NCBI RefSeq assembly: GCF_030814715.1
Contig: NZ_JAUSVO010000001.1
Location: 186,001-250,000 of the forward strand
From: Kaistia dalseonensis
GTDB lineage: Bacteria > Pseudomonadota > Alphaproteobacteria > Rhizobiales > Kaistiaceae
DNA: 64,000 nucleotides
Reading direction: 5' to 3'
How positions within the stretch are numbered: the stretch's first letter is position 1; every line of letters starts with the position of its first letter. Position numbers and translations under genes: made by a program. Below the pieces are notes generated by a model that saw only the letters and a program-made list of their open reading frames with translations, was not told the DNA's origin and did not search any database. Shown here in pieces: positions 41,601-54,758 of the stretch.

Positions 41601-42194
41601 CTAATGCAGGAGGCTGATCGCAACCCAAGCCAGCACGCCGGAGCCGGCGACGCCAAGCGGAAGCCCGCGGCCGTCGAAAACCAGCAGCGTCTCGCCCGCC
41701 ACGAGCGCATGGCTCGTCCCGTCGATCGCGACCGTCCACGCGCCGTCGAGCGCCAGAAACACATTGCGGTCCGCAAGCGCGCCGTCCGCCGTCCCGTCCC
41801 TGTGGATGGTGAGCTCGGCCTGGGCCGCGCCGCGCGCGACCATGACGTTGAGATCGCGCGAGGCGCCGCGGACATTCTCCGCCCGCGTCGCCCAGTCGCC
41901 GGAAAAGCGCACCGGAACCAGCGGTTCGATCGGCGCGATCCGGCCATGCGGTCCGAAATCAAGATCGAAGCCGGCGCCCTCGACCAGCGTCAGGATACGG
42001 TCCAGCCCCGGGAAGGGCGAAAAATCACCGTCCTCGTTTACGTCGGCCTTGGAAACCCGCCAGAGCATCGCGCCGGAAGGTTCGTCCTCGCGCGCAATCT
42101 CGACCGTGGTGCCGCGGCCGTTGCGCCAGGGCATGACCCGATAGTCGTTCAGGCGAAGATGCCGGATGACCGGCGCCGCGCCGCTCGCGCTCAT
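41601..42194 (-). CDS. hutD: HutD family protein
   Basis: 197 residues. HutD is a cupin-like protein found only in hut loci. In Pseudomonas fluorescens it is reported to limit hut expression rather than catalyse a step. The family start [20 protein letters not shown] and the segment [20 protein letters not shown] are well conserved. The ATG overlaps the hutU stop by 4 nt (ATGA). Confidence 0.9.
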
Positions 42195-43867
42195 TTGCCG
42201 AGCATGGGCAAGTCGAGGCCCTGCTCGCGGGCGCAGTCGATCGCGATCTCGTAGCCGGCATCGGCATGGCGCATCACGCCGGTCGCGGGATCGTTGGTGA
42301 GCACGCGCTTCAGTCGCCGATCGGCATCCTCGGAACCGTCGCAGACGATGACCATGCCGGAATGCTGCGAATAGCCCATGCCGACGCCGCCGCCATGATG
42401 CAGCGAGACCCAGGTCGCGCCCGAGGCGCAGTTCAGCAGCGCATTGAGGAGCGGCCAGTCCGAGACGGCATCCGACCCGTCGCGCATCGATTCCGTCTCG
42501 CGGTTCGGCGAGGCGACCGAGCCGGAATCGAGATGATCGCGGCCGATGACGATCGGTGCGGAGAGTTCGCCGCTCCTGACCATCGCGTTGAAGGCGAGGC
42601 CGAGCAGGGCGCGCTGGCCGAGGCCGACCCAGCAGATGCGGGCCGGCAGGCCCTGGAAGGCGATACGCTCGCGCGCCATGTCGAGCCAGTTGTGCAGATG
42701 CGCATTATCGGGGATCAGCTCCTTGACCTTCGCATCTGTCCTGTAAATGTCCTCCGGATTGCCCGAGAGCGCGGCCCAGCGGAACGGCCCGATGCCGCGG
42801 CAGAAGAGCGGGCGGATATAGGCCGGCACGAAGCCCGGAAAGTCGAAGGCGTGCAACTCGCCCTCGTCCTTCGCCATCTGGCGGATATTGTTGCCGTAAT
42901 CGAACACCGGCACGCCCATGGCGTGGTAGTCGAGCATGGCGCGCACATGGGTTTTCATCGAGGCCTTGGCGGCGGCGGTGACGGCCTCGGGTTCGGTCTG
43001 TGACCGCGCGCGATAATCTTCCCAGGTCCAGCCGGCCGGCAGATAGCCGTTGAGCGGGTCATGGGCCGAGGTCTGGTCGGTGACGAGATCGGGCCGGATG
43101 CCGCGCTTCACCAGCTCGGGCAGGATTTCAGCCGCATTGCCGAGCAGGCCGATCGAGATCGCCTCCTTGTTGGCGCAATGGGTCGCAACCAGCGCCAGCG
43201 CGTCGTCGAGCGAGGCGGCCTGCTTGTCGAGATAGCGGGTGCGCAGGCGGAAATCGATGCGCGACTGCTGGCATTCAATGTTGAGCGAGACGGCGCCGGC
43301 CATGGTCGCGGCCAGCGGCTGCGCGCCGCCCATGCCGCCGAGGCCGGCGGTCAGCACCCAGCGACCGGCCAGGCTGCCGCCATAATGGCGCCGCCCGGCC
43401 TCGACGAAGGTCTCGTAGGTGCCCTGAACGATGCCCTGCGTGCCGATATAGATCCAGGAGCCGGCCGTCATCTGGCCGTACATCATCAGGCCTTCGCGAT
43501 CGAGCGCGTTGAAATGCTCCCAGTTCGCCCAATGCGGCACGAGGTTCGAATTGGCGATCAGCACGCGCGGCGCGTCGCCATGCGTCTTGAAGACCCCGAC
43601 CGGCTTGCCGGACTGGACGAGCAGCGTCTCGTCCTCCTCCAGCCGTTCCAGCGTCTTGACGATCATGTCGTAGGAGGCCCAGTCGCGCGCCGCGCGGCCG
43701 ATGCCGCCATAGACGACGAGTTCCCTCGGATTCTCGGCGACGTCAGGGTCGAGATTGTTCATCAGCATGCGGAGCGGCGCTTCGGTGAGCCAGCTCTTGG
43801 CGTTGAGCGTGGTGCCGCGCGGGGCACGGATTTCGACATCGCGATAACGGGAATTGCTGAGCATCAT
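42191..43867 (-). CDS. hutU: Urocanate hydratase
   Basis: 558 residues, the usual length. HutU hydrates urocanate to 4-imidazolone-5-propionate, using tightly bound NAD as electrophile. The active-site Cys lies in [12 protein letters not shown]-adjacent [15 protein letters not shown] and the NAD-binding segments are [14 protein letters not shown] and [16 protein letters not shown] start with AGGAGATCGG upstream is clear. A degenerate HutC-type box lies 13 bp upstream of the start (43880-43893). Confidence 0.96.
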
Positions 43868-43940: not shown

Positions 43941-44696
43941 TCAGCCCTGGCTCGGCCTCTGGCGGCTGCGCAGCCGATAGCGCCCGCCGGGGATCAGCAG
44001 GCGGACGGCGGTGACGACGCGCTCGCCGACGAAGGTGCGCCTGCGGATCAGCATGCACGGGTCGGTGCGGCTCATGGCGAGCAGGCGTGCTTCCCATGCC
44101 GCCGGCAGCACGGCCTCGATCTCGTGCTCCGCCTCCGTCCAGGCGACGACCTCGCTCAGGAAGCGGTTCGGCGTGATCTGCGTGAAGTCCTGGCGGATAT
44201 AGTCCGGCGCGATCCCGGTATTGACATAGCGGTCCTCGAGCTGGACCGGGATCTCGTTTTCGAGATGCACGATGATCGAGTGATAGACCGGCTCGCCCAC
44301 GTCGATATCGAGCGATTCCGCGATTTCCGGTGATGCGCGCAGCGTGTCGAGCACGATGATCCTGGCCGAATGCTGGTGGCCGCGCTCGGCGATCTCGTCG
44401 GCGATGTTGCGCACCTCGACGATGCTCGACTGCCCCTTGCCCTCCGCGACGAACGAGCCGAGACCCTGAACGCGCACGATGATGCCTTCGAGCGAGAGCT
44501 CCCGCAGCGCGCGATTGACCGTCATGCGGCTGACGCCGAGCTCGCTCACCAACTCGTTTTCGGAGGGGATGCGATGGCGCGGCGGCCAGTCGCCGTTTTG
44601 GATCCGGCCGAGGATCATCTGCTTGACGCCGGCATAGAGCGGCGCCGTTCCGGCCCGCTCGGGGGCGGCGCTGTCGCCCTGATCCGTTCTGCTCAC
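43941..44696 (-). CDS. hutC: Histidine-utilisation repressor, GntR family
   Basis: 251 residues from a GTG at 44696 with GGAG upstream; a TTG at 44735 would add 13 residues. The N-terminal winged HTH is [14 protein letters not shown], then [20 protein letters not shown] and the wing [11 protein letters not shown]. The C-terminal UTRA domain (ALVs in [20 protein letters not shown], and FLSEVVAW) is the one that binds urocanate in HutC. Its place between hutU and hutF supports the name. It should repress hut genes until urocanate accumulates. Confidence 0.92.
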
Positions 44697-44741
44697 TTCT
44701 TCATCACTCCGGCCGTCTGAATAATTGGCAGTCAAGAACGC

Positions 44742-44802: not shown

Positions 44803-46182
44803 ATGAATCAGTCTAGTCCCCGATCCATCTTCGCCGAAAGGGCGCTCCTGCCGGAAGGCTGGGCGGTGAATGTCCGTATCGACATTGCCGCCGATGGATC
44901 GATCGGCGCCATCGCCGTCGACGCCGCGCCCGAGGGCAGCGAGATCGCCGCCGGCCCTGTCATCCCCGCTATGCCGAACCTGCATTCGCACGCCTTCCAG
45001 CGCGCCATGGCCGGACTCGCCGAGATCGCGGGTTCGGGAGAGGACAGTTTCTGGACCTGGCGGGAGGAGATGTACCGGACCGTCGGCCTGCTCTCGCCCG
45101 AGGATGTCGAGGCGGTCGCGACCCGGCTCTATGTCGACATGATGAAGGGCGGCTATGGCGCCGTCGCCGAGTTCCATTATCTCCATCACGATGCGTCCGG
45201 AAGCGCCCATGCCGATCCGTCGGAGATGTCGCGGCGCATCCTGGCTGCGGCTTCGACGAGTGGCATCGGCCTGACGCTGCTTCCCGTCTTCTATGCCCAT
45301 GCCAATTTCGGCGGTGCGCCGCCGAGCCCCGGCCAGCGCCGTTTCGTCCATGATGTCGACGGCTTCCTGGCCTTGATCGAGGCGCTCCGCCCGGCCGCAT
45401 CCGAAACGGGCGCGACGCTCGGCTGCGCCTTCCATTCGCTCCGTGCCGCGATGCCCGAGGAGATGCGCGCGATCCTCGGCGGACTTCCGGCATCCGGCCC
45501 GATCCATATCCATGTGGCCGAGCAGCAGCGCGAGGTCGATGATTGTCTGGCCTGGAGCGGCCGTCGTCCGGTCGCATGGCTGCTCGACGAGATGCCGGTC
45601 GATCATCGCTGGTGCGCGATCCATGCGACCCACATGAATGATGACGAGACGCGGCGCCTCGCCGCGAGCGGCGCGGTTGCGGGCCTCTGCCCGGTGACCG
45701 AGGCCAATCTCGGCGACGGCATCTTTCCGGCCGTTGCCTATCAGGCGGCCGGCGGGCGCTTCGGCATCGGCTCCGACAGCGAGGTCTCCACCAGCGTCGC
45801 GGAAGAATTGCGCCTGCTCGAATATGGCCAGAGACTCCGTGACCAGCGCAGGAATAGGCTGGCGCGCGGGCCGGGCCGTTCGGTCGGGCGCGATCTCTTC
45901 GATGCGGCCTGTGCCGGCGGCGCGCAGGCGCTCGGACAGAAGATCGGGGCGATCGAGCCGGGCAGGGCGGCGAGCCTCGTCGTGCTCGATGGCGCCGACG
46001 CGTTCATCGCGGCGGCGACGGGCGATCAGGTGATCGATCGCTTCCTGTTCGCGCTCGGCGATCGCGCCGTTCGCGATGTGATGGTTGCGGGAACATGGCA
46101 GATCCGGAACGGGCGCCATGAACGGGACGAAGAGATTGACCGCGCCTTTGCCGGCGCGGTTCGAAGACTGGCGCAGGGCTGA
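44803..46182 (+). CDS. hutF: Formimidoylglutamate deiminase
   Basis: 459 residues. HutF hydrolyses N-formimino-L-glutamate to N-formylglutamate and ammonia. It is an amidohydrolase-superfamily member with the metal ligands in MPNLHSHAFQRAM, the substrate-binding SFWTWREEMY segment that marks HutF, IHIHVAEQQREVDDC, ATHMNDDE, and GSDSEVSTS with the catalytic Asp. Its presence together with hutG shows the five-step pathway variant. An unusually weak ribosome site precedes it. Confidence 0.94.
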   Translation: MNQSSPRSIFAERALLPEGWAVNVRIDIAADGSIGAIAVDAAPEGSEIAAGPVIPAMPNLHSHAFQRAMAGLAEIAGSGEDSFWTWREEMYRTVGLLSPEDVEAVATRLYVDMMKGGYGAVAEFHYLHHDASGSAHADPSEMSRRILAAASTSGIGLTLLPVFYAHANFGGAPPSPGQRRFVHDVDGFLALIEALRPAASETGATLGCAFHSLRAAMPEEMRAILGGLPASGPIHIHVAEQQREVDDCLAWSGRRPVAWLLDEMPVDHRWCAIHATHMNDDETRRLAASGAVAGLCPVTEANLGDGIFPAVAYQAAGGRFGIGSDSEVSTSVAEELRLLEYGQRLRDQRRNRLARGPGRSVGRDLFDAACAGGAQALGQKIGAIEPGRAASLVVLDGADAFIAAATGDQVIDRFLFALGDRAVRDVMVAGTWQIRNGRHERDEEIDRAFAGAVRRLAQG

Positions 46183-46211: not shown

Positions 46212-47057
46212 ATGAAAGTCACGAAGCTGATCCTTGCCGGCGCCCTGGCGCTCGCGGCCTTCGCCGGTGCTCCGGCGCAGGCGAAGGAATGGAAGACCGT
46301 CACCATCGCGCTCGAGGGCGCCTATGCGCCCTGGAACCTGACCAACCCCGACGGCACGCTCGGCGGTTTCGAGCCCGAACTCGCCAAGTATCTCTGCGAG
46401 CATGCCAAGGTCGAGTGCAAGCTGATCACCCAGGATTGGGACGGCATGATCTCGGCGCTGAACGCCGGCAAGTTCGACATCATCATGGATGCGCTGTCGA
46501 TCACGCCGGAGCGCAAGGAAGTCATCGCCTTCACCGTGCCTTATGCGGCGACGCCCGCCGCCTTCGCGACGCTGAAGGACAGCCCGCTCGCCAACCTCGC
46601 CGGCACCGGCACGACGATCAAGCTGACGGCCGACGTGGCCGAGCAGAAGAAGGCCGTCGAGGCGCTGCGCACGGCGCTGACCGGCAAGACCATCGGCATC
46701 CAGGCCGCGACCGTCTATGCCAAGTTCATCTATGACAATTTCGGCGATGTCGCGACGGTGCGCGAATACAAGACCTCGGCGGATCGCGATCTCGACGTGG
46801 TGGCCGGCCGCATCGACGTCGCCTTCGACGACGGCGTCTACCTGATCTCGGCCTTCGCCAACCCCGACACGGCCGATCTCGCCTTCACCGGCCCGGAAAT
46901 CGCCGGCTCGATCTGGGGCGAGGGCGAAGGCCTCGGCCTGCGCAAGGAAGACACCGAGCTGAAGGCCAAGTTCGACGAGGCGATCAAATCCGCGCTCGCC
47001 GACGGCACGGTCAAGACGCTGTCGCTGAAGTGGTTCAAGGTCGACGTCGCCCCGTAA
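46212..47057 (+). CDS. Histidine/polar amino-acid ABC transporter binding protein
   Basis: 281 residues with a clear signal peptide (MKVTKLILAGALALAAFAG, cut after AQA). SBP family 3 features: VTIALEGAYAPWNL, GGFEPELAKYLCEHAKVECKL, DGMISALNAGKFDIIMDALSITPERKEVIAF and the second-lobe strand DVVAGRIDVAFDDGVYL. Located between hutF and two permease genes, it probably delivers histidine (or a related compound such as urocanate) to the transporter encoded downstream. Confidence 0.88.
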   Translation: MKVTKLILAGALALAAFAGAPAQAKEWKTVTIALEGAYAPWNLTNPDGTLGGFEPELAKYLCEHAKVECKLITQDWDGMISALNAGKFDIIMDALSITPERKEVIAFTVPYAATPAAFATLKDSPLANLAGTGTTIKLTADVAEQKKAVEALRTALTGKTIGIQAATVYAKFIYDNFGDVATVREYKTSADRDLDVVAGRIDVAFDDGVYLISAFANPDTADLAFTGPEIAGSIWGEGEGLGLRKEDTELKAKFDEAIKSALADGTVKTLSLKWFKVDVAP

Positions 47058-47420: not shown

Positions 47421-48143
47421 ATGGCCTTCATTGAAACGCTCGGTTTCGGTTCGACCGGCTGGGGCGGCCTGCTCCTGATCGGCGCGCTGACCACGCTCGC
47501 CGTGACGCTCGCATCGCTTGGCGTCGGCGCCGTGCTCGGCACGCTCGTTGCCTGGGCCAAGCTTTCCGGCAATCGCATCGCGGGTTTCGTGGGCGATGCC
47601 TATACGACGATCTTCCGCGGCGTGCCGGAATTGCTCGTCATCTATCTCGTCTATTTCGGCGGTTCGCATGCCGTCACCTCCGCCGGCAAGGCGCTGGGCT
47701 TCGAGGGGTTTCTCGGGCTTCCCTCCTTCCTTGCCGGCGCGATCGCCGTCGGCGTGATTTCGGGCGCGTACCAGGCCGAGGTCTATCGCGGCGCCTTCCT
47801 CGCCGTGCTGCCGGGCGAGATCGAGGCGGCGCGCGCGATCGGCATGCCGCGCTTGCTGCGCTTTCGCCGCATCATCGTACCGCAGATCCTGCGCTTCGCG
47901 CTGCCGGGCCTCGGCAATGTCTGGCAGTTGAGCCTGAAGGATTCCGCGCTCGTCTCGGTAACGGGCCTTGCAGAGCTGATGCGCACCTCGCAGGTCGCCG
48001 CCGGTTCGACGCGCCAGTATTTCCTGTTCTACATCGTCGGTGGCTGTCTCTATCTCGTGCTGACCAGCTTCTCCGATCGCGCCTTCGGCGCTGCGGAAGC
48101 CCATACCGGCAAGAGCTTTCGCCGCGGCCTCGGGCGGGCGTGA
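47421..48143 (+). CDS. Polar amino-acid ABC transporter permease (HisQ-like)
   Basis: 240 residues with about five membrane spans. The N-terminal TTLAVTLASLGVGAVLGTLVAWAK is split into the first span, FRGVPELLVIYLVYF is the conserved segment after it, and GEIEAARAIGMPRLLRFRRI is the EAA loop that contacts the ATPase. GAGGAG precedes the ATG. With the next gene it forms the heterodimeric channel of a histidine/polar-amino-acid importer. Confidence 0.92.
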   Translation: MAFIETLGFGSTGWGGLLLIGALTTLAVTLASLGVGAVLGTLVAWAKLSGNRIAGFVGDAYTTIFRGVPELLVIYLVYFGGSHAVTSAGKALGFEGFLGLPSFLAGAIAVGVISGAYQAEVYRGAFLAVLPGEIEAARAIGMPRLLRFRRIIVPQILRFALPGLGNVWQLSLKDSALVSVTGLAELMRTSQVAAGSTRQYFLFYIVGGCLYLVLTSFSDRAFGAAEAHTGKSFRRGLGRA

Positions 48144-48152
48144 GGGCAGGCC

Positions 48153-48896
48153 ATGGATTTTCCCTTTCTCATCGACACGCTCGGCAAGCTGATGGCGGCC
48201 CTGCCGACCACGCTCGGCCTGTTCTCGCTCTCGGTCACGATTGGCGGCCTGCTGGCGATCGGCATCGTATGGATGCGCGTCAGCGGCCATTTCGTGCTGG
48301 AGCGCTTCGCGCGGGCCTATGTCTTCGTCTTTCGCGGCTCGCCGCTGCTGATCCAGATGTTCCTGGTCTATTACGGCCTCGGCCAGTTTCCGGCCGTTCG
48401 CCACAGCCTGTTCTGGCCGCTGCTGCGCGAGCCCTTCGCCTGCGCCGTGATCTCGCTCGCGCTCTGCACGGCCGGCTATACGGCGGAGATCTTCCGGGGC
48501 GGCCTGCTCGCCGTGCCGGCCCGCGAGGTCGAGGCGGCGCGGGCGACCGGCATGTCCGGCTTCCTGCTGCTGCGCCGGATCATCGCGCCGATCGCGCTCC
48601 GCCAGGCGCTGCCATCCTATTCGACCGAGATCGTGCTGATGGTGAAGTCGACAGCGCTGGCGAGCCTCGTCACCGTCTGGGAGGTGACAGGCGTGGCGCA
48701 GCGCATCATCTCGCAGACCTATCGCACGATGGAAGTCTTCCTCTGCGCGGCCGCGATCTATCTCGTGCTCAACTTCATCATCGTCCGCCTGATCGGGCTC
48801 TGGGAACATCGCCTGTCGCGCCATCGTCGCGGTATGCCGGTATCGAGCCTGTCCAAGCCGCTTCAAGCCGGCGGAAACCTCGGAGACGCCTCATGA
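48153..48896 (+). CDS. Polar amino-acid ABC transporter permease (HisM-like)
   Basis: 247 residues with about five spans. FRGSPLLIQMFLVYYGL is the family signature, and REVEAARATGMSGFLLLRRI is the EAA loop. It begins 9 bp after the HisQ-like gene, with GAGGG as ribosome site. Its last codons overlap the ATPase start (ATGA). The C-terminal 20 residues extend a little past the usual family end. Confidence 0.92.
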   Translation: MDFPFLIDTLGKLMAALPTTLGLFSLSVTIGGLLAIGIVWMRVSGHFVLERFARAYVFVFRGSPLLIQMFLVYYGLGQFPAVRHSLFWPLLREPFACAVISLALCTAGYTAEIFRGGLLAVPAREVEAARATGMSGFLLLRRIIAPIALRQALPSYSTEIVLMVKSTALASLVTVWEVTGVAQRIISQTYRTMEVFLCAAAIYLVLNFIIVRLIGLWEHRLSRHRRGMPVSSLSKPLQAGGNLGDAS

Positions 48897-49672
48897 CCGC
48901 TACGCCTCCGACCGCCCTGACCGTCAGGGATCTGCGCAAGAGCTTCGGCGATCTGCCGGTGCTGAAGGGCATCTCGCTCGATGCCCGCGAGGGCGACGTC
49001 ATCTCGATCCTCGGCGCCAGCGGCTCCGGCAAGAGCACGTTCCTGCGCTGCATCAACCTGCTGGAAACGCCCGATTCCGGCGAGATCACCGTCGCGGGCG
49101 AGACGATCGCGATGAGAAGGCGCCGCGATGGGCACATGGAGCCCAGCGATCGCAAGCAGGTTGATCGCATCCGTTCCGAACTCGGCATGGTGTTCCAGAA
49201 TTTCAATCTCTGGTCCCACATGACCATCCTCGAAAACCTGATCGAGGGGCCGATCCATGTGCTGAAGCGGTCCCGCGCCGAGGCGATCGCAGAGGCCGAG
49301 GTGCTGCTGGAAAAGGTCGGCATTGCCGATAAGCGCCATCATTATCCGGCACTGCTCTCGGGCGGACAGCAGCAGCGCGCCGCGATCGCCCGCGCGCTCG
49401 CCATGCGGCCCAAGGTAATGCTGTTCGACGAGCCCACCTCGGCGCTCGATCCCGAACTCGTCGGTGAGGTGCTGCGGGTTATGCGCGCGCTTGCCGAAGA
49501 AGGCCGCACCATGCTGGTCGTGACGCATGAGATGGGCTTTGCCCGCAATGTCTCGAACAAGGTCATGTTCCTGCATCAGGGGCTCGTCGAGGCGGAAGGC
49601 TCGCCTGGCGAGGTGTTCGACGAGCTGAAATCGGATCGCTTCCGCCAGTTCATTTCGGGCTTCAAGAAGTAG
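48893..49672 (+). CDS. Polar amino-acid ABC transporter ATPase (HisP-like)
   Basis: 259 residues from the ATG at 48893. It has Walker A GASGSGKSTFLRC, the Q-loop in MVFQNFNLWSHMT, the signature LLSGGQQQRAAIARAL, Walker B VMLFDEPTSALDPE and the switch His in VVTHEMGFA. The extended strand EITVAGETIAMRRRRDGH is typical of HisP/GlnQ-type subunits. It powers the importer made of the preceding three products. The hutH-like gene follows 5 bp later. Confidence 0.94.
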   Translation: MTATPPTALTVRDLRKSFGDLPVLKGISLDAREGDVISILGASGSGKSTFLRCINLLETPDSGEITVAGETIAMRRRRDGHMEPSDRKQVDRIRSELGMVFQNFNLWSHMTILENLIEGPIHVLKRSRAEAIAEAEVLLEKVGIADKRHHYPALLSGGQQQRAAIARALAMRPKVMLFDEPTSALDPELVGEVLRVMRALAEEGRTMLVVTHEMGFARNVSNKVMFLHQGLVEAEGSPGEVFDELKSDRFRQFISGFKK

Positions 49673-49677
49673 GCATC

Positions 49678-51189
49678 ATGCGGACCATTCTCCTCGACCA
49701 GCCGCTCGGCTGGCGCGATATCGCCGCCATTGCCGAGGGCGCGGACATCCTGCTCGCCGATCCGGCCCGCCAGCGGATCGCCACGGCGCGCGCCATCGTC
49801 GAGACCATCGTCGCGCGCGGCATTCGCGCCTATGGCGTCAATACCGGCGTCGGGGCGCTCAGCGATGTCGCCGTCGATCGCGATCATCAGCGCCAGCTCT
49901 CGCGCAATCTGCTGATGAGCCATGCCTGTGGCGTCGGCGAGCGGCTCGGGGCGCGCGAGGTTCGCGCCATCATCGCGGCGCAGGTCAACAATTATGCTCA
50001 TGGCCATTCCGGCGTGCGGCCGGCGGTGGTCGATGGGCTGATCGCGCTGCTCCAGCATGATTGCATCCCCGATGTTCCCGCGCGCGGTTCGGTCGGCTAC
50101 CTCACGCATATGGCCCATATCGCGCTGGTGCTGATCGGCGAGGGCAGGGCGCATCTCGGTGGCGAGGCGCTCAGCGGTGCCGAGGCGCTGGCGCGGATCG
50201 GTATCGAGCCGCTGGTGCTGGAGGCGAAGGAAGGCCTCAGCCTCGTCAATGGCACGCCCTGCGCGACGGGCCTTGCGTCGCTCGCGCTTGCTCGCTCGGA
50301 GCGCCTGCTCGATTGGGCCGATGCAACTGCGGCCATGAGCTTCGAGAATCTTCACGGCCAGCCCAACGCCTTCGACGCGGTGCCGCTGGCGCTCCGCGTC
50401 TCGGCCGGCCTCGCCGAAACGGGACGGAACCTGCGGGAGCGGCTGGCGGGCAGCGAGATCCTCGCCGCGACGGCCGGCGCGCGCACGCAGGATGCGCTCA
50501 GCCTGCGCGCGGTGCCACATGTCCACGGCGCCGCCCGCGACAGTCTCGCCCATGTGGGACGCGCCATCGACCAGGAACTCGCCTCGGTGACGGATAATCC
50601 CGCCATCGCCGGAACGCCCGAGGCGCCGCTGGTCTATTCCGAGGCCCATGCGGTCAGTCCCGCGCTCGGCCTTGCCATGGACAGCCTCGGCATCGCCGTC
50701 GCAGAAGTGGCCGCCATGGCGGAGCGCCGGCTCGACCGCCTCGTCAATCCGCTGGTGAGCGGCCTGCCGGCCTTTCTCGCCGGCAATAGCGGCGTCGGCT
50801 CCGGCTTCATGATCGCGCAATATACCGCTGTCGCGCTCGTCAACGAGAACCGACGCCTGGCGGCACCGGCGAGCCTCGATGGCGGCATCACCTCGGCGCT
50901 GCAGGAAGATCATTTGAGCCATGCGACGCCGGCCGCGACCAAGGCGCTGGCGATCCTCGACAATGCCGAGGCGATCGTCGCGATCGAGCTGATGGCCGCC
51001 GCGCAGGCCTATGAATTCCAGGAACCGGCGCTGAAGCGCGCGCCGGGCACGGATGGGCTCTACCGCGCGGTCCGCGCCATCCTGCCGCCCTATGCCGATG
51101 ACCGTCCGCTGGCCGACGACATGGCCAAGGCGCGCGCGCTGATCCGCCAGGCGCGCCCTGCCGCCGCCCCGCCCTTGGCTGCATCCTGA
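49678..51189 (+). CDS. HutH-like aromatic/histidine ammonia-lyase paralogue lacking the MIO triad
   Basis: 503 residues, homologous along its length to HutH at 52396-53940. The Tyr segment survives ([13 protein letters not shown] for the usual VYGINTGFG), as do [10 protein letters not shown] and [10 protein letters not shown]. However, the Ala-Ser-Gly that cyclises to the MIO electrophile is missing: [15 protein letters not shown] in HutH aligns with [12 protein letters not shown] here, an exact three-residue gap after GSVG. The QDPYCLR motif of HutH reads QDALSLR, losing the active-site Tyr. Ammonia-lyase activity by the known mechanism is therefore unlikely. It may be a regulatory or partner subunit, or have another activity. 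It lies in the middle of the hut operon, coupled tightly to the transporter. Confidence 0.85.
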
Positions 51190-51196
51190 GGACATC

Positions 51197-52399
51197 ATGG
51201 AAACGCTCTATCGTAACGCCCGCATCGCGACGCTCGCGCCCTTTGCCGAAGGGCTCGGCATCATCGAGCATGGCGCGATCCTCCTCTCCGGCGAGCGCAT
51301 CGCCTGGGTCGGGCCGATGGAGGACCTGCCGACGGGCATCAATCCAGCCCGTTCGATCAATCTGGAGGATCGCTGGGTTACGCCTGGCCTGATCGATTGC
51401 CATACCCATCTCGTCTTTGGCGGCGACCGCGCGCAGGAGTTCGAGATGCGCCTCGCCGGCGCCAGCTATGAGGAGATCGCGCGCGCCGGCGGCGGCATCG
51501 TCTCGTCGGTGCGGGCGACGCGGGCGGCAAGCGAGGATGAACTCGTCGCCGCCGCGCTCCGCCGCCTCGATGCGCTGATCGCGGAAGGCGTCACCACGAT
51601 CGAGGTCAAATCCGGCTATGGCCTCGATATCGAGACCGAGCGCCGCCTGCTCGCCGCCGCGCGCCGGCTCGGCCGGGAGCGCGACGTCACGGTGCTGGCG
51701 ACGTTCCTTGCGCTGCATGCCCTGCCGCCCGAGGCGCGGGACGATCGCGCCGGCTTCGTGCGCATGATGTGCGATGAGGCGCTGCCGGCCTTCGCCGCTG
51801 ACGGCCTCGTCGATGCGGTCGATGCGTTCTGCGAAGGCATCGCCTTTTCGCCGGAGGAGACCGCGCGGCTCTTCACGGCCGCGCGCGCCCTCGGCCTGCC
51901 GGTCAAGCTGCATGCCGACCAGCTTTCCAACCTGCATGGCGCTCGGCTCGCGGCAGAATTTGGCGCGCTTTCGGCCGATCATCTTGAACACACCGACGCC
52001 GACGGCGCGGCCGCCATGGCCGCTGCCGGCACCGTCGCCGTGCTGCTTCCCGGCGCGTTCTATTTCCTGCGCGAGACGGTGAAGCCGCCAGTCGAGGCGT
52101 TTCGCGCGCACGGCACGCGGATGGCGATCGCGACCGACTGCAATCCGGGAACCTCGCCGGTCACCTCGCTGCTGACGATCATGAACATGGCCGCGACGCT
52201 CTTCCGCCTGACCGTCGACGAATGCATCGCCGGCGTCACGCGCGAGGCGGCGCGGGCGCTCGGCAAGCTCGGCGAAACCGGGACGATCGAGCCCGGCAAA
52301 TTTGGCGACTTGGCGATCTGGGACATAGAGCGCCCGGCCGAGCTCGTCTACCGCGTGGGGTTCAACCCGCTGCACAAGAGAATCCGGAGGGGACGATGA
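51197..52399 (+). CDS. hutI: Imidazolonepropionase
   Basis: 400 residues. HutI hydrolyses 4-imidazolone-5-propionate to N-formimino-L-glutamate. The amidohydrolase metal site is [19 protein letters not shown], the substrate-binding segment is [14 protein letters not shown], and further ligands lie in [19 protein letters not shown] and ATDCNPGTS. The stop overlaps the hutH start by 4 nt (ATGA). Confidence 0.96.
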
Positions 52400-53940
52400 A
52401 AGAGCTGATGACACTGGAGCCGGGGGCGGTTTCGCTCGCCGCATGGCGCAGCATCTATTTTGGCGCCGAGGCCGTGCTTGATCCGTCCTGCCGACCGGTG
52501 GTCGAGGCGAGCGCCGCCACGGTCGAGGCGATCATCGCCAAGGGTGAGCCCGTCTATGGCATCAATACCGGCTTCGGCAAGCTCGCCAGCGTGCGCATCC
52601 AGGACGCCGATCTCGCGACCTTGCAGCGCAATCTCGTGCTGTCGCATGCGGCCGGCGTGGGCGAGGCCCTGCCGGTGCCGATCGTGCGCCTGATCATGGC
52701 GCTGAAGCTCGCGAGCCTGGCGCAGGGCGCCTCGGGCGTGCGCTGGTCGACGATCGTTCATCTCACGCAATGTCTGGAGCGCGGTCTCGTCCCGGTGGTC
52801 CCCGGGCAGGGCTCCGTCGGCGCCTCGGGCGATCTCGCGCCGCTCGCGCACATGACCGCCGCGCTGATCGGCGAAGGCGCCTTCATCGTCGATGGCGTGA
52901 CGCTGCCGGCCGGAGAAGCGCTGGCGGCGGCCGGCATGGAGCCGCTGGTGCTCGGGCCGAAAGAAGGGCTCGCGCTGTTGAACGGCACGCAGGTCTCGAC
53001 CGGCCTGGCGTTCGCCGGCCTGTTCGAGGCGGAGCGCGTGTTCCAGGCGGCGCTCGTCACCGGCGCACTTTCGACCGATGCGGCGCGCGGCTCTGATGGG
53101 CCGTTCGATGCCCGCGTCCACGCCGTCCGCCGGCATCGCGGCCAGACCGAGGTCGCGGCGACGCTGCGGGCGCTGATGGCCGGCAGTGCGATCCGCGCCT
53201 CGCATCTCCTGGGCGATGAGCGCGTGCAGGATCCCTATTGCCTGCGCTGCCAGCCGCAGGTGATGGGGGCCTGCCTCGATATATTGCGGCAGGCCGGCCA
53301 CACGTTGCTGATCGAGGCGAATGGCGTGTCCGACAATCCGCTCGTCTTCGCGGCCGAGGGCGAGGTGATCTCCGGCGGCAATTTCCACGCCGAGCCGGTG
53401 GCCTTCGCCGCCGACATGATCGCCATGGCGATCTGCGAGATCGGTTCGCTCACGGAGAGGCGGCTCGCCATGCTGGTCGATCCCGTACTCTCTGGCCTGC
53501 CGGCCTTCCTCGCGCCGAAGCCGGGCCTGAATTCCGGCTTCATGATCCCGCAGGTGACGGCGGCCGCGCTCGTCTCGGAGAACAAGCAGCGCGCCTATCC
53601 CGCCAGCGTCGATTCGATCCCGACTTCCGCCAATCAGGAGGATCACGTCTCGATGGCGGCGCATGGCGCGCGGCGGCTGCTGCCGATGGCGGAGAACGCC
53701 GCGAACGTGGTCGGCATCGAATTGCTGGCGGCCGCGCAGGGCTGCGATTTCCACGCGCCGACGCGTTCGAGCGCCGCGCTCGAGCGGGTCCGTGCGCGAC
53801 TGCGCGACGATGTCGCCCATCTCGCCGATGATCGCTTCTTCGCTCCCGATCTCGCCGCCGCCACCGCGCTGGTGCGGTCCGGCGTTATCGCCGCGACGGC
53901 CGGTGCCGACCTGCTGCCCGATCTGGCCGAGGCCGCATGA
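52396..53940 (+). CDS. hutH: Histidine ammonia-lyase
   Basis: 514 residues from the ATG at 52396, with GGAGGGGACG as ribosome site. HutH removes ammonia from L-histidine to give trans-urocanate. The MIO-forming Ala-Ser-Gly is at residues 143-145 in [14 protein letters not shown]. The catalytic Tyr is in [13 protein letters not shown], the Asn in LLNGT, the Tyr/Arg pair in [11 protein letters not shown] and the Glu in [10 protein letters not shown]. All key residues are intact, in contrast to the paralogue upstream. Confidence 0.97.
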
Positions 53941-54758
53941 TGAACGCGACTGAAGAGACAATCGACTGGCTCACGATCCGGCGTGGCGCGGCGCCGCTGC
54001 TGGTGAGCCTGCCGCATACCGGAACGACGCTTCCCGACGCGGTCGCCGCACGGTTGCTGTCGCGCTCGCGCGCGCTCAAGGACACGGACTGGTGGATCGA
54101 CCGGCTTTATGATTTCGCCGCCGCGCTCGACGCCACCATCGTGCATACGGCGATTTCGCGCACCGTGATCGACGTGAACCGCGACCCTTCGGGCGCCTCG
54201 CTCTATCCCGGCCAGGCGACGACGGGGCTTTGCCCGACGACGACCTTCGACGGCGATCCGCTCTACCACGCCGGTCAGGAGCCCGATCAGGCCGAGATCG
54301 AGCGTCGTCGCGACGCCTATTTCGCGCCCTATCATGCGGCGCTCGCGTCCGAGATCGCGCGGCTGCGCGGAAGCCATGAGCGCATCGTCGTCTATGATTG
54401 CCACTCGATCCGGTCCGAGGTGCCGCGCCTCTTCGAAGGCACGCTGCCGAATTTCAACATCGGCACCAATGACGGGCGGAGCGCTGCACCTGAATTGACG
54501 GCGCTGGCGGAGGCGATCTGCGACGCATCGGGTTTCTCGCGCGTCACCAATGGCCGCTTCAAGGGCGGCTGGATCACGCGGAGCCTCGGCGATCCGGCAG
54601 GAGGCGTCCACGCCATCCAGATGGAGCTCGCCTGCCGCGGCTATATGGACGAGCTTGCCGGCGACGAGCCCGCTCCCTATGACGCGGACCGCGCCGCGCC
54701 GATGCGGGCGGTGCTGGTCGAACTTCTCACGGCCCTGAAGGACTGGGCCGGGCGCTGA
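53937..54758 (+). CDS. hutG: N-formylglutamate amidohydrolase
   Basis: 273 residues. It completes the pathway by splitting N-formylglutamate into glutamate and formate. Family motifs are [58 protein letters not shown] and [13 protein letters not shown]. It overlaps the hutH stop by 4 nt and is the last gene of the rightward hut operon. It converges on wspR with a 23-bp gap. Confidence 0.95.

Follow-up and report, generated by a model that had tools for sequence, protein, structure and literature searches.

What does a histidine-utilization (hut) operon gain from a second histidine ammonia-lyase (HAL, HutH) gene whose product lacks the residues that form the MIO cofactor? The window analyzed here, that is, the whole stretch of 64,000 nucleotides of Kaistia dalseonensis DNA, carries such a paralogue in a locus where the hut pathway is complete. 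An enzyme of the MIO type and a MIO-free relative, encoded in a single operon, form a natural pair for comparing how the HAL fold carries out elimination. Our reading, to which we give just short of an even chance, is that the paralogue would be an active MIO-free HAL-fold lyase that converts hercynine into urocanate and trimethylamine, and would thus provide a second entrance to the Hut route.

In the window, hutU and hutC on the reverse strand are followed on the forward strand by hutF, a binding protein gene, two permease genes, an ATPase gene, the paralogue, hutI, hutH and hutG (Table 1). Five bases separate the end of the ATPase gene from the start codon of the paralogue, in agreement with the tight coupling to the transporter described in the original prediction, and seven bases lie between the paralogue stop and the start of hutI. 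Given this spacing on both sides, the paralogue is probably cotranscribed with the ATPase gene and hutI on one transcript.

Table 1. Features of the hut locus, in positions of the window.
Feature	Positions	Strand	Basis
hutU, canonical urocanate hydratase	42191..43867	-	TIGR01228 986 bits at 42203-43834
hutC, histidine-utilization repressor	43941..44735	-	profile match
hutF, formimidoylglutamate deiminase	44803..46182	+	profile match
Substrate-binding protein, polar amino acid ABC importer	46212..47057	+	TIGR01096 221 bits, under cut-off 256
ABC permease, HisQ/ArtQ-like	47421..48143	+	profile match
ABC permease, ArtM/HisM-like	48153..48896	+	profile match
ABC ATPase	48893..49672	+	named from its sequence, without library scan
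MIO-free HutH paralogue, 503 aa, ATG start	49678..51189	+	ORF list, PF00221 profile, clade alignment
GSVGY codons (HAL = GSVG-ASG-D), three residues fewer	50086..50100	+	alignment to the window's HutH
QDALSLR codons, Leu274 at HAL Tyr280 position	50488..50508	+	alignment
hutI, imidazolonepropionase	51197..52399	+	profile match
hutH, MIO-type histidine ammonia-lyase; ASG codons 52822-52830	52396..53940	+	TIGR01225 672 bits, cut-off 539
hutG, N-formylglutamate deformylase	53937..54758	+	profile match

The 503-aa reading frame has a complete HutH/PAL fold assignment, as expected of the full-length paralogue first proposed, and aromatic amino acid lyase (PF00221) is the single Pfam family in it (506 bits versus a cut-off of 27.3). 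Its GC content by codon position (0.76/0.51/0.83) is of the coding type and matches that of hutH, hutI and hutG alongside. The protein shares 42% identity with the HutH encoded in the window and stays below the cut-offs of two HutH models (TIGR01225, 480.4 versus 539.15 bits; NF006871, 483.3 bits versus 524). Relatives in RefSeq plasmid records are nevertheless annotated as hutH or hutHa2, histidine ammonia-lyase.

Alignment to the window's HutH revealed a loop that reads GSVGY---LTHM ([12 protein letters not shown] aligned to [15 protein letters not shown]), with the four HAL residues Ala-Ser-Gly-Asp corresponding to one Tyr. An exact deletion of Ala-Ser-Gly had been claimed at this place; the net loss of three residues stands, but the Asp145 conserved in HAL is also gone, with a Tyr in its position, and a replacement of ASGD by Y fits equally. 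Similarly, the flanks had been described as aligning without other gaps, which holds for about 120 residues on each side of the motif but not farther out, where small gaps occur. The reported QDALSLR in place of QDPYCLR was recovered in the same alignment. Compared with HutH as represented by TIGR01225 and the Pseudomonas putida structure 1b8f, the paralogue shares the fold, the length and most active-site residues, whereas the Ala-Ser-Gly tripeptide, Asp145, Tyr280 and Phe329 of HutH are all absent from it.

Patterns derived from the clade, scanned against species genomes, yielded at least 568 confirmed relatives, the best 80 of which (62-72% identical; not a random sample of lyases) were analyzed together with five plasmid loci, making 85 loci. 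These best 80 include members of Rhizobium, Paraburkholderia, Labrys, Pleomorphomonas, Phyllobacterium, Ensifer, Agrobacterium and Shinella, as well as two gammaproteobacterial bins. The plasmid loci are five places examined among 888 plasmid records that match the protein at E 1e-5, presumably ordinary HutH for the most part. The MIO tripeptide is absent from the window protein and from all 85 relatives, every one of which has the loop GS[VA]GYL[STIV]H and Leu at the HAL Tyr280 position.

Residues were compared between 50 clade members, including the window protein, and 18 MIO-type sequences. Most of the HAL active site is retained in the clade (Tyr53, His83, Gln277, Arg283 and Glu414 in 50/50 each, and Asn195 in 49/50), and Tyr141 and His144 of the shortened loop are fixed (50/50 each). 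Leu at Tyr280 was found in 50/50 clade members, 5/5 ergothionases and 0/18 MIO types, Val at Phe59 in 49/50, 5/5 and 1/18, respectively, and Ala at Phe329 in 48 of the 50 clade members. Tyr53, His83, Asn195 and Glu414 are the equivalents of Tyr52, His82, Asn194 and Glu411 of the Geobacillus kaustophilus enzyme, each of which is described as essential in a passage of PMC11432326, since its mutation abolishes activity. In addition, the Ser-His pair that distinguishes HALs from PALs, according to a passage of PMC3903478, is present as Ser81-His82 and is invariant in the clade alignment, which fits an imidazole substrate.

Comparisons of ten pairs of close relatives gave dN/dS values of 0.025-0.106, indicating strong purifying selection on the paralogue, and this, together with the loop fixed in 85/85 loci, agrees with the retained function that was originally suggested. 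A sequencing error, a pseudogene or an annotation artefact, for which nothing was found in favor, has next to no probability, as it is ruled out by the same change in 85/85 relatives and by the purifying selection seen in every one of the ten pairs. The HAL fold is also retained as judged from the sequence and from an AlphaFold2 monomer model built from 40 sequences (mean pLDDT 90.3, pTM 0.91, with low values at residues 403-409). A Foldseek search of this model against the PDB placed P. putida HAL structures at the top (TM 0.91, rmsd 2.3) and ergothionase 6s7j at rank 20 (TM 0.89, rmsd 2.8). The active site of the HAL fold is assembled from several subunits.

Matches to the protein at E 1e-60 were found in 157 of 297 genomes of the order. 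Twenty of the 297 were classed as carriers, with best matches 49-100% identical, while the remaining matches reached at most 43% among the matches listed. ASG is absent in all 20 carriers; non-carriers were defined by identity, and in ten of their sequences that were read (L023-L032) ASG or ACG was present in 10/10. Within the window's family the spread of the gene is patchy: none of 12 other sampled members had a higher-identity match, and three had one at 40-41%, the level of HutH. Both hutU and MIO-type HutH were present in 20/20 carrier genomes, whereas a HutH-like match at E 1e-60 occurred in 137/277 non-carriers (Fisher p 1.7e-6 for the latter comparison, with genomes taken as independent). 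The MIO-free gene therefore supplements HutH and accompanies the downstream pathway.

The neighborhoods of the relatives, counted in 85 fetched stretches of mostly 10 kb per side with gene families named from representatives, also pointed to the hut system. A hutC gene was found in 82/85 stretches, so that the second hutH copies foreseen in other hut loci do recur there, in many soil bacteria, as a clade with the same three-residue gap. The other hut genes were less frequent within these stretches (hutF in 28, hutU in 24, hutI in 19, hutH in 18 and hutG in 16), and no hut gene was found in the fetched stretches of L055, L069 and L075; among the neighbors scanned for the outlying members L055, L075, L133 and L134, neither hut nor amine genes were present. 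The polar amino acid ABC importer occurred in 67/85 stretches, 66 of which also have hutC. In 12 other stretches the gene is adjoined by an OpuAC (glycine betaine type) binding protein gene; ten of these are alike, and L097 and L110 make up the rest. A further OpuAC binding protein is encoded in L115, beyond hutU on the opposite strand. This last locus, from Aureimonas, has the operon hutC-hutF-MIO-free gene-hutI-hutG-hutU, and MIO-type hutH is absent from the stretch. Directly downstream of the paralogue, 32/85 loci carry an N-methyl-L-tryptophan oxidase family gene, one representative of which was scanned against NCBIfam (L037:11525-12685, 407 bits, cut-off 257).

An importer-then-histidase order has a possible counterpart in Sinorhizobium meliloti, where the hutXWV-hutH2 operon (Boncompagni 2000) reportedly encodes an ABC importer for betaines and histidine upstream of a 'putative histidase'. 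This order resembles that of our plasmid locus L116, the strain of which is the sole S. meliloti-named plasmid record with a near DNA match.

HAL-fold lyases that dispense with MIO are already known through ergothionase, an enzyme of ammonia-lyase-like structure without MIO that splits ergothioneine into trimethylamine and thiourocanic acid, as stated in a passage of a paper from 2026 (PMC13405746). The known ergothionases (PDB 6s7j/6s7q from Treponema denticola, and those of rhizobial ert clusters) resemble the paralogue in having a HAL fold without MIO, Leu at Tyr280 and Val at Phe59, and they retain Tyr53, His83, Arg283 and Glu414 as the MIO-free clade does. On the other hand, they are only 26-30% identical to the paralogue, their loop is [CE]-[AG]-D and one residue shorter than in HAL, whereas that of the paralogue is three residues shorter with a Tyr in place, and the Asn195 column holds Ser in ergothionases (5/5), while the HAL Asn is kept in the MIO-free clade. 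The neighborhoods differ as well, since rhizobial ergothionases adjoin thiourocanate hydratase and not hut genes, and the MIO-free clade adjoins hut.

Thiourocanate hydratase was detected over the cut-off in 5/398 genomes of the window's phylum, and a MIO-less HAL-like gene was present in four of the five fetched loci (L124-L127); the fifth, L128 (G236), had thiourocanate hydratase over the cut-off and no HAL-like gene at E 1e-10 within 19.5 kb. The lyase of L125 has 6s7j as its best PDB match (2e-47), and its neighbors over cut-off include the hydantoin-5-propionate amidohydrolase ErtD, the N-carbamyl-L-glutamate amidohydrolase ErtE and a thiohydantoin desulfurase. Three genomes (G023, G187 and G281) carry, besides an ert-cluster MIO-less lyase, a MIO-type HutH and, on a different contig, a member of the paralogue's clade, so that different MIO-less enzymes coexist within one genome. 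In phylogenetic trees the MIO-free clade was separate from the known ergothionases; a single clade with ergothionase was nevertheless compatible with the data (AU p 0.205), and in a tree enlarged with further MIO-less sequences every MIO-bearing row lay on one side of a branch with a support of only 66. In view of these two values, an independent loss of MIO was dropped as a claim.

How could such an enzyme act? In HAL, the amine leaves poorly by itself and is activated for departure by MIO. A trimethylammonium group does not require this activation and, with the precedent of ergothionase, the fold could therefore eliminate without the cofactor, the substrate already bearing a good leaving group. 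Because the downstream hut enzymes are canonical, urocanate is the expected product, and hercynine (N-alpha,N-alpha,N-alpha-trimethyl-L-histidine, or histidine betaine) the candidate substrate. Fungi and some bacteria form this betaine as an intermediate of ergothioneine synthesis. In the proposed scheme, the co-encoded ABC transporter would import hercynine, beta-elimination by the paralogue would split it into trimethylamine, which would be released, and urocanate, and the latter would enter the ordinary HutU-HutI-HutF-HutG route and induce the operon by relieving HutC. For HutC of Pseudomonas aeruginosa, the inducer is described as histidine or urocanate in a passage of PMC12977541.

Some observations count against hercynine. 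Without MIO, the beta-proton should be harder to remove next to an unmodified imidazole than in ergothioneine with its thione ring, and most importers at these loci are of the polar amino acid type (67) and not of the betaine type (12). The N-methyl amino acid oxidase gene is unneeded in the hercynine scheme and may hint that mono- or dimethylated histidines matter too. Genes of trimethylamine catabolism were considered as support and dropped, since their association with the paralogue did not hold at the genus level: TMAO demethylase was found in 9/20 carriers versus 55/277 others (Fisher p 0.02) and in 3/9 versus 31/113 genera, and the glutamine-synthetase-III family of the methylamine route in 11/20 versus 92/277 (p 0.055) and in 5/9 versus 48/113 genera. 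There was no TMAO demethylase match at E 1e-150 in the window's own genome. The same genome does contain a methylamine cluster of the N-methylglutamate type (L143, G000 C3:153000-172500), with a weak glutamate-synthase-like match, a type III glutamine synthetase and soxB/soxA-like genes; its glutamine synthetase had no match at E 1e-140 in 12 other sampled family members.

The same evidence bears on three other explanations. The oxidase gene, next downstream in 32/85 loci, and an importer related to lysine/arginine/octopine systems would suit a lyase without MIO whose substrate is a different N-modified histidine, from which it would release an amine together with urocanate or methylurocanate; candidates are N-alpha-methyl- and dimethylhistidine, histidine betaines methylated on the ring, and histidine opines, for example histopine. 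We regard this as unlikely, because the MIO-free precedent with a solved structure expels trimethylamine, and secondary and tertiary amines leave poorly if MIO is absent. It is quite unlikely in our view that the enzyme is of the ergothionase type, acts on ergothioneine or its sulfonate and lies in hut loci by chance of regulation. The case for this rests on the common fold without MIO, the shared Leu and Val substitutions, the AU value for one clade with ergothionase, and a passage of PMC13405746 that cites a bacterial ergothioneine sulfonate pathway (Yan 2022) and Agrobacterium radiobacter as an ergothionase source, the lyase of which may belong to the paralogue's clade. Yet the neighbors are hut genes, in three genomes the MIO-free gene is accompanied elsewhere by an ert cluster that encodes both thiourocanate hydratase and a separate MIO-less lyase, and no thiourocanate hydratase match at E 1e-240 was found in the window's own genome. 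For an ordinary ergothionase in particular, these ert clusters with a lyase of their own and the differences in loop and neighborhood weigh against it.

A catalytically dead HutH paralogue that serves as a partner, regulator or ligand-binding protein is improbable. The loss of both MIO and Tyr280 speaks for it, as do the full HutH in the same operon and the MIO-type HutH of all 20 carrier genomes. However, residues that are essential in a HAL are nearly or fully invariant, which makes a dead partner subunit unlikely, new residues have become fixed in the shortened loop, and hutH was found in only 18/85 of the fetched stretches, mostly of 10 kb per side. A mere binding or scaffold protein would have no reason to retain all of the essential HAL residues. 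Among the functions offered by the original prediction, the retained residues and the MIO-less ergothionase thus favor the new enzyme over the non-lyase roles, the partner subunit and the binding protein.

The preferred reading, a hercynine trimethylamine-lyase, would if true describe a bacterial breakdown route for hercynine, with trimethylamine release from soil betaines as a practical corollary, and would explain widespread genes named histidine ammonia-lyase although they lack the cofactor-forming residues. At a broader scale, we consider it conceivable, at somewhat less than an even chance, that hut loci of rhizobia, paraburkholderias and their relatives encode MIO-free hercynine trimethylamine-lyases, which would be part of a larger set of MIO-free HAL-fold enzymes, at present annotated as HutH, each of which would act on its own betaine and several of which occur together in some rhizobial genomes. 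Neither a hut-linked clade with the three-residue loss nor hercynine, urocanate and a lyase in one paper was found in the open-access literature searched; hercynine and trimethylamine occur together in passages of PMC13405746 and PMC9732360. In a passage of PMC3903478 the term 'MIO-less' denotes a laboratory Ser-to-Ala mutant of a PAL, and PMC9002059, on the evolution of MIO enzymes, leaves ergothionase unmentioned.

Further PF00221 proteins without MIO were encountered in rhizobia. Those of L171-L175 and L178-L182 (G069, G229, G136, G105, G209, G281) have loops one residue short (GSIGAADL, GSVGAADL, GSIGAGDL), with Leu at Tyr280 in 9/9 rows aligned, Leu at Phe59 in 9/9, and His83 often lost (Arg in 6/9). 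Neighboring genes, scanned in L191 and L192, include aldehyde dehydrogenase, aminotransferase and ornithine-cyclodeaminase-like genes. These families are possibly lyases for other betaines. Since they agree with the paralogue's clade at Tyr280 and differ from it at Phe59 (Leu in place of Val), the shared Leu may simply accompany MIO loss and need not reflect a shared substrate type. One of these MIO-less genes ([14 protein letters not shown], L188:8299-11765) is flanked on one side by a HutC-like regulator gene (44% identity) and on the other by that of an OsmF-type glycine-betaine binding protein (186 bits, under the cut-off of 400). Very diverged PF00221 proteins were also observed in L176, L177 and L185 (G248, G265, G209), where the profile skips the MIO region at positions of about 140-174. 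Finally, PF00221 proteins of a third type, which retain ASG and carry QDVYSLR, were seen in L209-L212 (G198, G121, G150 and G087, genus g55), in genomes with five PF00221 matches each.
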